Source: Armatimonadota bacterium
GTDB taxonomy: Bacteria; Armatimonadota; Fimbriimonadia; Fimbriimonadales; Fimbriimonadaceae
Length of the DNA stretch: 64,000 nt
Reading direction: 5' to 3'
Assembly (NCBI GenBank): GCA_027451905.1
Contig: DAIDHV010000003.1
Coordinates: forward strand, 1 to 64,000
Shown: positions 9,810 through 23,308 of the stretch, piece by piece
Numbering within the stretch: position 1 is the first letter of the stretch
Layout of the letters: every line of letters starts with the position of its first letter
Notes under the pieces: generated by a model
What the model saw: only the letters and a program-made list of their open reading frames with translations
The model's database searches: none
What the model was told of the DNA's origin: nothing
Program-made: the position numbers and the translations under genes

Positions 9810-10808
9810 ATGGCACTAGCCCTTGCAGCAATGCTTTTGAATAGTATACAAACGTATCGGTATCGTGTTGATTTTCAACAGGACCACTTTGTGATCACTT
9901 CTACCGCAACCAAAAAGCTTGTGGGCGATGTCTCCATCGTTTCCACCCCTCCAAAGCAAAGCTATGGGGTTGGATTTTCGGCAGGGCATGTTAAGATGAC
10001 GTGGGATCAACGTGGATTAACGATCAAAAGCATTGGCAAACCCTATCGGACAGAGTTTAGGGACGTGCCCACCAGCCCGAGGTTAAGACCCCGAAAAGAT
10101 ATCCGCCTGACTCTAGTGCAGGCCCACACCCAAGGAAGAAAGCTCACCGCATCAGCCCTAAGCGGCTGGCAAGAACAAGGCTCAGACGTCTATCTATTGG
10201 TCCGATGGCAAGATAAGCCGGGATACGCATGGTTAGAAGCCCTAGAAAGGATTGATCTGGGTCAGTCTATTCCCCGCCCAGAAACTCTTGCCATATTGCC
10301 AGGAGTCTCCTTTTCTGCAAAAGCAGTGGATTCTAATCTCCTGAGGATCGGTCAAGATTTGGTTGCCTATGTGCATAGCGGAACAACTTGGGGACGCTGG
10401 AGTTTCAACACGGCAACTCAAAAATCGAGCTACTTAAAACTTGGAGAGAACCCAAAATACATCAACGGTCTGAAAAATGGCGAAGTCCAAGCCATCGAAA
10501 AAACGCCCTACGGATCCTTTAACGCCTCCTTGCTCAACGGAATTTCTGGCGTCCGCCTATGCCACGAAGAATTCGAGAGGATGCCAAAATTTGTCAACCC
10601 TCTTTTGGCAGGGGTGGTTGAGGTGGGAACTGAAAAGAAAGAGCTTGTGAACATCGAGACGGGAGCCACAAAGACGGTGCCTTCTGATTCCCAATATGCC
10701 GTGGTGAAAGGAGACCTTCTCCTTTGGACTGGAGGCGACCAACCGCAACGGGCCTGGTTTCTCAGCCCTGCGGAGTGGTCGCCATTTGGTGAATGGAGTC
10801 AAAGCTAA
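9810..10808 (+). CDS. Exported protein of unknown function
   Basis: 332 aa with a short hydrophobic start (MALALAAMLL), then a soluble beta-rich protein with many Trp/Gly and no recognised motif. It is divergent from the small gene at 9804 and its stop overlaps the end of the sigma-factor gene by 4 bases (convergent). It may be a WD/propeller-like surface protein, but the repeats are not clear enough to say so. Confidence 0.65.
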   Translation: MALALAAMLLNSIQTYRYRVDFQQDHFVITSTATKKLVGDVSIVSTPPKQSYGVGFSAGHVKMTWDQRGLTIKSIGKPYRTEFRDVPTSPRLRPRKDIRLTLVQAHTQGRKLTASALSGWQEQGSDVYLLVRWQDKPGYAWLEALERIDLGQSIPRPETLAILPGVSFSAKAVDSNLLRIGQDLVAYVHSGTTWGRWSFNTATQKSSYLKLGENPKYINGLKNGEVQAIEKTPYGSFNASLLNGISGVRLCHEEFERMPKFVNPLLAGVVEVGTEKKELVNIETGATKTVPSDSQYAVVKGDLLLWTGGDQPQRAWFLSPAEWSPFGEWSQS

Positions 10809-12088
10809 GCGGCTTTGGGCTGCTTTTCTAGATACTCTTTGATTTCGGATGCGGGCCTTGGTTGGGCAGCCTTAATGACCTCGTCATACGTCTTGCCATC
10901 TTCAGGGGCGACAGCTGCGCCGAGTTCTAGCTCGATTCCACTTCTTTCGCTGTACCTTCCGTGCATCCAATCCACTGCCCTTTTCAGAAGCAAGCGGCGG
11001 ACAATCCCTAGCTTGTGTCCCGACTCCGGAAAGACAAGGGCAAACCCAGATTTACCAAAACGGCAAACCATGTCTAACCTTCTTGTATTGCCACGCAGAA
11101 AATCGGCCGCATCAGAGAGAAAGTCCTTGACGCTTTGTTCTCCATAGAACTTCGAAAGTCCCTCGAGGCCATTGAATCTCAGCAGAACAACCGCAACCTG
11201 AGCATCATCCGCATTGGCACGATGAAGCTCTTCCTGCAGGCGAGACTTAAAGAAAGCCTCGGTATAGGCACCGGTTTCTGGATCAATGACGTCGTAGTCT
11301 AGCTCCAAAGCTTGCCGCCGCAAGATGCGATCCTTCTCTTCTTCCACCGTAAGAATCTTTCTCAGTTTAGAAAGTGACTGGCGCAGGATATGGCTGACAT
11401 AATTGCAAGAAATCCCGAGCTTGTCTGCTATCTCAGATTGATTGAGGGCCTCAAAGTGAAACAGAACAAGAACTTCTCGTTCCAAATCTCGCAGCTGCTT
11501 CATGGCCTGCTCCAGCACCAGCCGATCCTCAACCGAAAGCTGGTCGGGGCAGGCAAAGGAAGCCTCTAGTCGATCTGATTCACCGTTGTCATCACCTGGA
11601 TTGGATTGGTCCAAAGAGCCAACCTTAAGCATCTCTTGGGTCTGGAACACTTCTTTAACCGCTGCCTCGCTAACGTCAATTGAATCGGCTATTTCTCGCT
11701 CGGTTGGTACGCGACCAAGCTCTTGCTGCAAAAGGGCAGCAGACCGAACCACCTTTTGACGCAGTTCTTGCAGCCACGCAGGATGGCGGATGGTCATGGC
11801 GCGATCTCGCAAGTAATGCTTGATTTCTCCCGCGATAAGGTAATTGGCATAGGTGTTAAACTTAACTCCTTCGCCGGCATCATATTTCGATAGGGCATTG
11901 AGAAGGCCAATATATCCAACCTGAACTAGGTCTTCAAAATTTTCCATTCCTGTAAAGCGCCTAGCAATGCGCTCTACTAAACCTGAATATTGAACTAATA
12001 TGAGATCTTTGAGATCGGGACGCGGGTTTTGCAAGTACCGCATCACGAGCCCTTCTGTATCCTGATGACAGGACAATGATTCTGACAT
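10805..12088 (-). CDS. Sigma-70-family sigma factor fused to a degenerate GGDEF domain
   Basis: One continuous frame encodes two modules. Residues about 1-250 are a sigma-70 factor of the SigB/SigF/WhiG-like group: region 2 (ENFEDLVQVGYIGLLNALSK, then FNTYANYLIAGEIKHYLRD), region 3 (GRVPTEREIADSIDVSEAAV) and region 4 (ALNQSEIADKLGISCNYVSHILRQSL). Residues about 260-410 fold like a GGDEF domain (DPETGAYTEAFFKSRL ... RFNGLEGLSKFYGE ... ELGAAVAPEDGKTYDEVI), but the signature loop reads GKSGF instead of GGDEF (about 345-349), so cyclase activity is unlikely. The domain may sense nucleotide or c-di-GMP, or mediate dimerisation. I chose the ATG at 12088, with GGAG 5 bases upstream, over the GTG at 12094. 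Confidence 0.9.
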   Translation of the reverse strand: MSESLSCHQDTEGLVMRYLQNPRPDLKDLILVQYSGLVERIARRFTGMENFEDLVQVGYIGLLNALSKYDAGEGVKFNTYANYLIAGEIKHYLRDRAMTIRHPAWLQELRQKVVRSAALLQQELGRVPTEREIADSIDVSEAAVKEVFQTQEMLKVGSLDQSNPGDDNGESDRLEASFACPDQLSVEDRLVLEQAMKQLRDLEREVLVLFHFEALNQSEIADKLGISCNYVSHILRQSLSKLRKILTVEEEKDRILRRQALELDYDVIDPETGAYTEAFFKSRLQEELHRANADDAQVAVVLLRFNGLEGLSKFYGEQSVKDFLSDAADFLRGNTRRLDMVCRFGKSGFALVFPESGHKLGIVRRLLLKRAVDWMHGRYSERSGIELELGAAVAPEDGKTYDEVIKAAQPRPASEIKEYLEKQPKAA

Positions 12089-12202: not shown

Positions 12203-13408
12203 CTAATGGATGCTGCTGACAAGTTTAAAGATCGGCATCATGATAGACATAACAATGAATCCAACAATGCCTCCCATAAACATAATGAGAAGAGGTTCGA
12301 TAAGTGAGGTCAGGCCTTTGACGGTTGCTTCCACTTCCTTATCATAAAAGTCGCCGATTTTCACCAGCATTTCGGAAAGTTTTCCGGATTCTTCACCAAT
12401 ATCAATCATGCAAATGACCATATCGGGGAACAATCCACACTTGGCAAGAGGGGTCGAAAGTTTGTTACCTTCTCGGATGCTAAGTCGAGTCTTGTCGATC
12501 GCATCTATGAGAATGACGTTTCCGAGGGTGTCACCCACAATTTCTAGGCTCCGCATCATTGGTACACCCGAGTTAATTAAGGTTCCAAAGGTTCGACAAA
12601 ACCTGGCAACGCTAAGCTTCATGCCAAGGGGACCAAAAATAGGGGCTCGCATCTTAAGCCAGTCTCGCTGCCATCTGCCTTTGGGGGTTTTTGTATAGAC
12701 CTTAACTCCAATAAAGGCGCCCACTATCATCGCGATGACAAGCAGCCAGTAATGGTTGCAAAAGTCAGAGACGGTGAAGAGAAACTGAGTGGTAGCCGGC
12801 AGCTTGACTTTAAAGCCCTGGAAAATGGTTTTAAAGTGAGGCAGAACAAAAGAAAACATCGCAAACAAGGTGCCCATAGAAGAGATCAAAACCATGATCG
12901 GATACATCATGGCACCCTTGATCTTGCCCTTGATTTCTGCTTCATATTCAAGGAATCCGGCAAGGCGCTCTAAAATGGCGTCAAGAATTCCACCCACCTC
13001 AGCCGCCTTAACCATGTTGACAAACAACTTGTTAAACACGGTGGGATGCTTCTGCATCGCCTCGTTAAGGGTCAAACCACTTTTGACATCAACTGTAATC
13101 TGGGCCAATACCGACTTGAGTGCCTTATCCTTCATCTGGTTGCTTGCAATGTCTAAGCAACGCAGAATGGGGATGCCAGCGTTGATCATGGTTGCAAACT
13201 GCCGAGAAAACACAACCAAGCTCTTAAGAGGCACCTTGGCTTTTCCAATTTGGCCCATTTTGAACCCTTTGGAAGATTTCTTGATCTCGGTGCAGTGGAG
13301 AGCCTGATCACGCAGTTTGGCAAGAACTAGGGTTTCCGATTCAGCCTCGATGGTGGCTTTGACGGTCCTACCGGTTGAATCAACCGCTGTGTATGTGTAA
13401 AATGGCAT
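12203..13408 (-). CDS. pilC: Type IV pilus / type II secretion inner-membrane protein (PilC/GspF)
   Basis: 401 aa with the two-repeat GspF architecture: a cytoplasmic N-terminal region (MPFYTYTAVDSTGRTVKA), a first GspF domain at about 65-190 (FSRQFATMINAGIPILRCLD), transmembrane segments near 165-190 and 220-240, a second domain at about 270-370 (FCRTFGTLINSGVPMMRSLE) and a C-terminal membrane segment (PLLIMFMGGIVGFIVMSIM). It forms the inner-membrane platform for pilus or pseudopilus assembly. No other pilus assembly genes are adjacent. The nearest possible client is the prepilin-like protein at 53315. Confidence 0.93.
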   Translation of the reverse strand: MPFYTYTAVDSTGRTVKATIEAESETLVLAKLRDQALHCTEIKKSSKGFKMGQIGKAKVPLKSLVVFSRQFATMINAGIPILRCLDIASNQMKDKALKSVLAQITVDVKSGLTLNEAMQKHPTVFNKLFVNMVKAAEVGGILDAILERLAGFLEYEAEIKGKIKGAMMYPIMVLISSMGTLFAMFSFVLPHFKTIFQGFKVKLPATTQFLFTVSDFCNHYWLLVIAMIVGAFIGVKVYTKTPKGRWQRDWLKMRAPIFGPLGMKLSVARFCRTFGTLINSGVPMMRSLEIVGDTLGNVILIDAIDKTRLSIREGNKLSTPLAKCGLFPDMVICMIDIGEESGKLSEMLVKIGDFYDKEVEATVKGLTSLIEPLLIMFMGGIVGFIVMSIMMPIFKLVSSIH

Positions 13409-13803
13409 GAAACCTCACGTGCCATCAATAAAGAGGATGGCTACCAAAGATTTTCGGCTTACAAAATGCCAATTCTTCGGGAATTTTTGCCAGGTTTGTG
13501 CCTAAATCCAGCATCAAAATAAGACCTCATCAGCCTTATTAGGTCTTTGCATCCCATACCTAAAGTTGCTTCCAAACTTTTCTGCAAAACTGATTTACTA
13601 TAGTGTTTTCTTGATGACTTTGGAAAAATCGACGAGATTCTGAAAATACAGGCAGAACCATGGCATTCAAGTTGACAAGAAGAATTCTCCTCGCCGCCAG
13701 AATCCAAAATGGTCAAAGTGAGCGCGGACCTCGGTTTTCAAACAAATGCTGGCAAGGCCATTTGATGTTGACATTGCCAGTTCTCTTAGAGGATTGAAAT
13801 CAG
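13409..13803. other. Intergenic region with one hairpin
   Basis: No convincing gene. AAGACCT (13521-13527) and AGGTCTT (13541-13547) form a 7-bp stem; on the minus strand it is followed by ATTTTG, a weak terminator candidate for the oxidoreductase genes upstream. A second possible stem, CTGGCAA/TTGCCAG, lies at about 13749-13780. The rest is probably the upstream region of pilC. Confidence 0.35.
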
Positions 13804-22895: not shown

Positions 22896-23003
22896 GATAG
22901 GCAGAAAAAGGCAAGACCGAGGTGACTCGGATCACGCAAAGCCTATGGGTCTCAGAAAGTTGCGCTAGAGGCAACATTCCGAGAAAGCCGGGTTACCTGT
23001 CTG
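22896..23003 (+). ncRNA. GEMM-I riboswitch (cyclic di-GMP class I)
   Basis: Conserved GEMM-I features appear in order: GGCAAGA, a 5-bp stem CCGAG/CTCGG closed by a GNRA tetraloop GTGA (22917-22930), ATCACGCAAAGCCTATGGG, a second arm with GTTGC/GCAAC (22959-22975), then AAGCCGGGTTACC (22985-22997). The basal stem is GGCAG (22900-22904) with CTGTC (22997-23001). The order and the CGCAAAGCC and GGGTTACC blocks match the Vibrio Vc2 type. The base equivalent to Vc2 G20 seems to be G, favouring c-di-GMP over cGAMP, but I aligned this by eye. It ends 24 bp before the flgM start, so control of translation is likely. Confidence 0.88.
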
Positions 23004-23026
23004 AGGTGGACATTGGTGGTAACACG

Positions 23027-23308
23027 ATGCGAATATCAGACACAGAAGTAAAGAAATTGCTGTCCCAAACCGAAGGGACTACGCCGTCATCGATCCTTGA
23101 AGACATTCAAAGGATCGCACTAGAAAACGATCAAAAGGCGGATAAAGACTTGGTGAGGCAAGTTGTGGAAGCCATTCATAACATGCCTGATCGTGAAGAC
23201 TTTGTTGCCGATCTCCGTGCCCGCATCGAGGCTGGCACTTACAATCCTACTGGCGATGAGATTGCCGATGCGATGATTCGGCGTGCCATTGCCGATCGGG
23301 TGCGCTGA
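23027..23308 (+). CDS. flgM: FlgM-like anti-sigma-28 factor
   Basis: 93 aa, starting MRISDTEVKKLLSQ at the ATG of 23027 with GGTGG upstream; a longer frame to 22922 runs through the riboswitch and is not translated. The C-terminus VADLRARIEAGTYNPTGDEIADAMI matches the sigma-binding part of FlgM proteins, and the middle is polar and probably disordered as in the family. FlgM holds FliA (sigma-28) inactive until the flagellar hook is complete. No flagellar genes are adjacent. The riboswitch in front suggests that c-di-GMP sets FlgM level. Confidence 0.8.
   Translation: MRISDTEVKKLLSQTEGTTPSSILEDIQRIALENDQKADKDLVRQVVEAIHNMPDREDFVADLRARIEAGTYNPTGDEIADAMIRRAIADRVR

Follow-up and report, generated by a model that had tools for sequence, protein, structure and literature searches.

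A SigB-like sigma factor fused to a degenerate GGDEF domain, a candidate c-di-GMP receptor, across the Armatimonadota

Results

A sigma-70 factor continues in frame into a GGDEF domain

The window analyzed here is a stretch of 64,000 nucleotides from a bacterium of the family Fimbriimonadaceae (Armatimonadota; contig DAIDHV010000003.1). A gene on its minus strand runs from an ATG at 12088 to a stop at 10805 through 427 codons without a break, and an alternative GTG start two codons upstream would give a protein of 429 aa. The gene has the following parts:

10805..12088, minus strand: sigma:GGDEF fusion gene, a single open reading frame of 427 aa, conserved at full length across the phylum
11798..11992, minus strand: Sigma70 region 2, residues 33-97 (Pfam PF04542, E 1.2e-14)
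11579..11767, minus strand: Sigma70 region 3, residues 108-170 (Pfam PF04539, E 6.8e-9)
11357..11506, minus strand: Sigma70 region 4, residues 195-244 (Pfam PF04545, E 4.2e-13)
10862..11287, minus strand: degenerate GGDEF domain, residues 268-409 (PF00990, E 1e-16, 61.6 bits against a cut-off of 23.8)

The initial annotation of this DNA had described a one-frame fusion of a SigB/WhiG-like sigma factor to a full GGDEF fold. The uninterrupted frame and the order of the Pfam matches, every one above its curated cut-off, agree with that description. For the sigma part, the SigB side of the label held: the top NCBIfam model is SigB/SigF/SigG (TIGR02980, 178 bits), FliA/WhiG scores clearly lower at 116 bits, and a separate WhiG/FliA-type sigma factor is encoded in the same genome. 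Because 178 bits is the best score yet falls below the model's cut-off of 234, the sigma part is best placed as a divergent SigB/SigF/SigG member. Judged by these profiles it is a group-3 (SigB-like) sigma-70 factor with regions 2-4 intact and without regions 1.1 and 1.2, and its region 3 separates it from ECF sigma factors, which have regions 2 and 4 only.

An AlphaFold model, built from only seven sequences of the window's family (mean pLDDT 70, pTM 0.39), matched sigma structures in Foldseek and contains one unbroken helix (228-262) leading from region 4 into the linker, although the model is unreliable for the arrangement of the domains. Residues 255-418 of the model matched GGDEF structures with Z 18-19, including PleD with c-di-GMP (2wb4, Z 18.7). 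Domain search and structure matching thus bear out the GGDEF fold, and the C-terminal part did not prove to be some other fold.

The fusion is conserved in the phylum and has a single origin on the sigma tree

The initial annotation had asked whether a frameshift error had joined two genes and whether the same architecture occurs in other Armatimonadota genomes. A single-copy, full-length and uninterrupted equivalent was found in 58 of 61 close genomes (38-64% identity), and a match at E < 1e-50 in about 184 of the 291 genomes of the phylum. The intact protein in close relatives together with the phylum-wide matches rules out a frameshift, an assembly artefact or chance. Matches at this threshold with listed coordinates cover both domains, except for fragments at contig ends such as those in G152 and G061 (the latter at about E 3e-50), and one relative (G167) has a TGA inside the gene. 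Named records with matches belong to Fimbriimonadaceae, Chthonomonas and other Armatimonadetes.

A tree built from the sigma part unites the fusions in a single group (SH-aLRT 95), and by this tree the sigma:GGDEF fusion has one origin. Inside the group are a branch without GGDEF (L200), which represents one apparent secondary loss, and a truncated contig (L206). The survey covered Armatimonadota genomes and plasmids. No plasmid hit reached 80% coverage of the query; the longest of them, from Methylorubrum, is an RpoD-like open reading frame without the GGDEF part and so is not the same fusion.

The GGDEF domain has lost its active site and kept the I-site residues

We aligned 87 distinct fusions with 33 GG[DE]EF cyclases from the same order. 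The features of the domain that bear on function are:

11042..11056, minus strand: former GG[DE]EF active loop, residues 345-349, now GKSGF as initially annotated
11072..11083, minus strand: RxxD I-site core, R336-R-L-D339, corresponding to PleD R359/D362 (R in 87 of 87 fusions, D in 86 of 87)
11219..11221, minus strand: R290, corresponding to PleD R313 of the secondary I-site (86 of 87 fusions versus 7 of 33 cyclases)

A canonical GG[DE]E or GG[DE]EF loop was found in none of the 87 fusions. Columns that are invariant in the 33 cyclases and lost in most fusions are D304, F308, N312, H317, G320, D321, G346, E348 and D409 (window numbering), among which D304, N312 and D321 are GTP/Mg-binding residues. 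The fusion thus has neither the loop nor the metal/GTP residues of a diguanylate cyclase, and by this alignment the active site is lost throughout the phylum. Three deep members (L103, L105 and L106) retain relics of it, including GGGTF, LDVDGL..N...GD and D/N residues, and because of these relics the domain probably derives from a working cyclase; the three are possibly intermediates on the way from cyclase to receptor.

The four I-site residues of PleD, where c-di-GMP binds as a dimer, are 313, 359, 362 and 390 (PMC7288161), and their correspondence to R290, R336, D339 and R366 was taken from alignment coordinates. R366, which aligns to PleD 389/390, is present in 83 of 87 fusions (95%). When the 33 cyclase-conserved columns were ranked by retention in the fusions, the top three were the I-site residues R336 (100%), D339 (99%) and R366 (95%), and the hypergeometric probability that all three fall among the six columns kept at 90% or more is 0.004. 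R290, R336, D339 and R366 occur all together in 81 of 87 fusions versus 4 of 33 cyclases; by this comparison R290 is a gain in the fusions. Part of the conservation of R336 and D339 may be structural, since the cyclases too often carry RxxD (R in 29 of 33, D in 28 of 33). The window protein is among the four fusions with an altered R366, having L366 flanked by R364 and R365, and its predicted I-site may be weaker because the equivalent of R390 is absent.

A GGDEF fold with RxxD kept and the active site lost is the pattern of degenerate-GGDEF c-di-GMP receptors, and we consider it quite likely that c-di-GMP binds the I-site of the fusion. The domain had been called catalytically dead, which the decayed active site supports but which undersells it, the I-site being kept. 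An early guess that c-di-GMP, GTP or dimerization might gate the sigma factor can be narrowed as well: retention of the I-site beyond that in cyclases favors c-di-GMP, and loss of the GTP-site residues speaks against GTP.

The fusion gene is associated with type IV pilus genes

Two further features lie upstream of the fusion:

12203..13408, minus strand: gene for a pilC-type (T2SSF) inner-membrane platform protein, immediately upstream of the fusion (PF00482, E 7e-64)
about 13450-13457, minus strand: CCGAnAAT box upstream of pilC (across loci mostly 46-72 nt before the gene)

A pilC gene lies directly upstream on the same strand in 34 of 45 distinct fusion loci. Deeper families have the order secretin (pilQ), pilB, pilT, pilC, sigma:GGDEF, in which PilB carries MshEN, a c-di-GMP-binding-type domain, and in Fimbriimonadaceae only pilC and the fusion are left of the pilus cluster. 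On gene order, the pilQ-pilB(MshEN)-pilT-pilC-sigma:GGDEF operon is the ancestral arrangement. Families f12, f13, f14 and f19 have the fusion with no adjoining pilC. Eight genomes of genus g20 have neither the fusion nor a close pilC orthologue, their best pilC being 42-44% identical versus 65-67% in fusion-bearing relatives, which also hold a 44% paralogue; pilus gene and sigma factor have thus disappeared together. At one locus (L198, genome G202), a pilQ-pilB-pilC cluster whose pilC is close to the fusion type lacks pilT and is not followed by a fusion, and the same genome has an rsbW-like-sigB pair at a separate locus (L199). On the other side of the fusion, a gene at 9810-10808 (plus strand) converges on it; it matches no Pfam family, and several Fimbriimonadaceae have relatives of it, 25-30% identical, at the corresponding position.

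Placement of rsbV and rsbW next to a sigma gene is the classical arrangement for partner-switching control. Where a family lacks the fusion, its closest sigma factor (about 35% identical) lies behind a HATPase/STAS (rsbW/rsbV-like) gene or pair. Among the loci tested such genes adjoin only these sigma-only relatives; rsbV or rsbW was not found beside the fusion, whose neighbors are pilC or unrelated genes.

Of 45 pilC genes, 23 have the CCGAnAAT box in the 150 nt before them, versus 0.9 expected from shuffling; in some relatives the box belongs to a CCGACAA-N5-TTGTCGG palindrome. Because similar palindromes recur elsewhere in the genomes, including those that lack the fusion, we did not accept the box as proof of an autoregulated sigma promoter and read it as the probable operator of some regulator.

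The organism very likely makes c-di-GMP

The genome encodes four strong GGDEF proteins and one weaker degenerate one besides the fusion, together with HD-GYP proteins; no EAL phosphodiesterase was found in it. The window also holds:

22900-23308, plus strand: c-di-GMP-I riboswitch (22900-23000; 35.8 bits, gathering threshold 35) followed directly by a gene for the anti-sigma-28 factor FlgM

Given the strong GGDEF proteins, the HD-GYP proteins and this riboswitch, the organism very likely makes c-di-GMP. The riboswitch, which scores against the c-di-GMP-I-GGC variant model as well, occurs once per genome in 34 of 41 relatives; at 29 of 30 loci examined, the window's included, flgM adjoins it. 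c-di-GMP thus appears to reach the WhiG/FliA-type sigma factor through a riboswitch-controlled anti-sigma, an arrangement that looks worth separate study. FlgM was rejected as a fusion-specific partner: it is kept in five of eight fusion-lacking genomes of genus g20, and the WhiG/FliA sigma factor exists. Elsewhere (G000:C2:368909-369253) the genome encodes a second degenerate GGDEF protein, about 424 aa long, and relatives appear to have counterparts of similar size.

Discussion

We propose, with moderate confidence, that the fusion is a one-protein, c-di-GMP-gated sigma factor of the SigB type, with its receptor built in and a tie to type IV pili. c-di-GMP would occupy the I-site of the GGDEF domain. 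Since the I-site of cyclases joins a pair of GGDEF domains to each other by way of (c-di-GMP)2, the ligand would most likely cross-link two sigma:GGDEF protomers, or else clamp the GGDEF domain onto the sigma part through the helical linker. Either event would alter whether the sigma factor can join RNA polymerase. That such gating of the holoenzyme lets c-di-GMP set pilus and surface transcription with no separate anti-sigma factor seems fairly probable to us. If this reading is right, a second sigma factor of the organism would be reached by c-di-GMP, here by direct binding. We lean slightly toward c-di-GMP holding the sigma factor off, by analogy with RsiG and WhiG; the MshEN PilB encoded in that operon points to the reverse sign.

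Precedents support the feasibility of this proposal, and none of them has this architecture. In Streptomyces, c-di-GMP locks WhiG to RsiG (PMC10519070, PMC13232838), which likewise places a group-3 sigma factor under c-di-GMP control, as proposed for the fusion; there the ligand sits between a separate anti-sigma and the sigma, whereas the putative GGDEF receptor here lies within the sigma factor. RmdB also pairs an enzymatically inactive GGDEF domain with sigma-WhiG (PMC13232838), but that domain acts in trans, as part of a phosphodiesterase, and the fusion's is in cis and phylum-wide. In ECF41 sigma factors a fused C-terminal domain controls the sigma (PMC3426412), an anti-sigma-like function in an extension such as we propose; these are ECF (group 4) factors without region 3, with an extension of about 100 aa of a different type and no second messenger known. 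PelD and PopA are GGDEF-type c-di-GMP receptors (PMC10519070, PMC7288161) and, like the fusion with its putative receptor role, have a non-catalytic GGDEF with an RxxD-type site, but their outputs are exopolysaccharide and cell cycle rather than a sigma factor. MshE-type ATPases bind c-di-GMP (PMC4624772), and MshE/PilB control likewise links c-di-GMP to the type IV pilus machinery, with an MshEN PilB in the ancestral operon, but it is post-translational and falls on the ATPase. Within the phylum, the closest relatives of the sigma part (families f24, f41, f42) are of the rsbV-rsbW-sigB operon type, whereas the fusion has GGDEF and pilC instead of adjoining rsbW/rsbV.

The conserved domain could serve instead as a docking module that recruits a diguanylate cyclase (DGC), the pilus ATPase or an anti-sigma factor, or that holds the sigma part intramolecularly. 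The inactive GGDEF domain of RmdB binds sigma-WhiG in Streptomyces (PMC13232838), the fusion-specific conserved residues R283, E286 and E287 on helix 1 would fit an interface, and in a few genomes (G040, G031 and G044) a DGC gene is found next to the fusion or close by. Docking does not predict that precisely the four residues contacting c-di-GMP would be almost invariant, and we regard it as rather unlikely.

Sensing of another nucleotide, whether GTP bound where the active site used to be or 3′,3′-cGAMP bound at the I-site, seems improbable to us. The degenerate GGDEF of CC3396 does sense GTP (PMC7288161) and the match of the window's riboswitch to the GGC variant model also speaks for another nucleotide, yet the GTP/Mg-binding residues D304, N312 and D321 and the GG[DE]E loop are gone from the fusions. 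That the domain is a functionless remnant, kept merely so that the sigma part folds or stays stable, would agree with the missing active site and with the L200 branch, nested among fusions, which appears to have dropped it; we give this account very little credence, given conservation in many families over the age of the phylum and the selective retention of four ligand residues.

Sigma factors are usually switched by separate anti-sigma proteins. Both halves of the fusion are known modules and fused sigma regulators are already known, but in the open-access literature we found no report of a sigma-GGDEF protein and no description of a sigma-70 factor acting as a second-messenger receptor in its own right. 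If our c-di-GMP-gated reading is true, a sigma factor with a built-in receptor would be the shortest path from c-di-GMP to global promoter choice and a compact part for synthetic transcription control, and it would explain how surface life is linked to transcription in a barely studied phylum.
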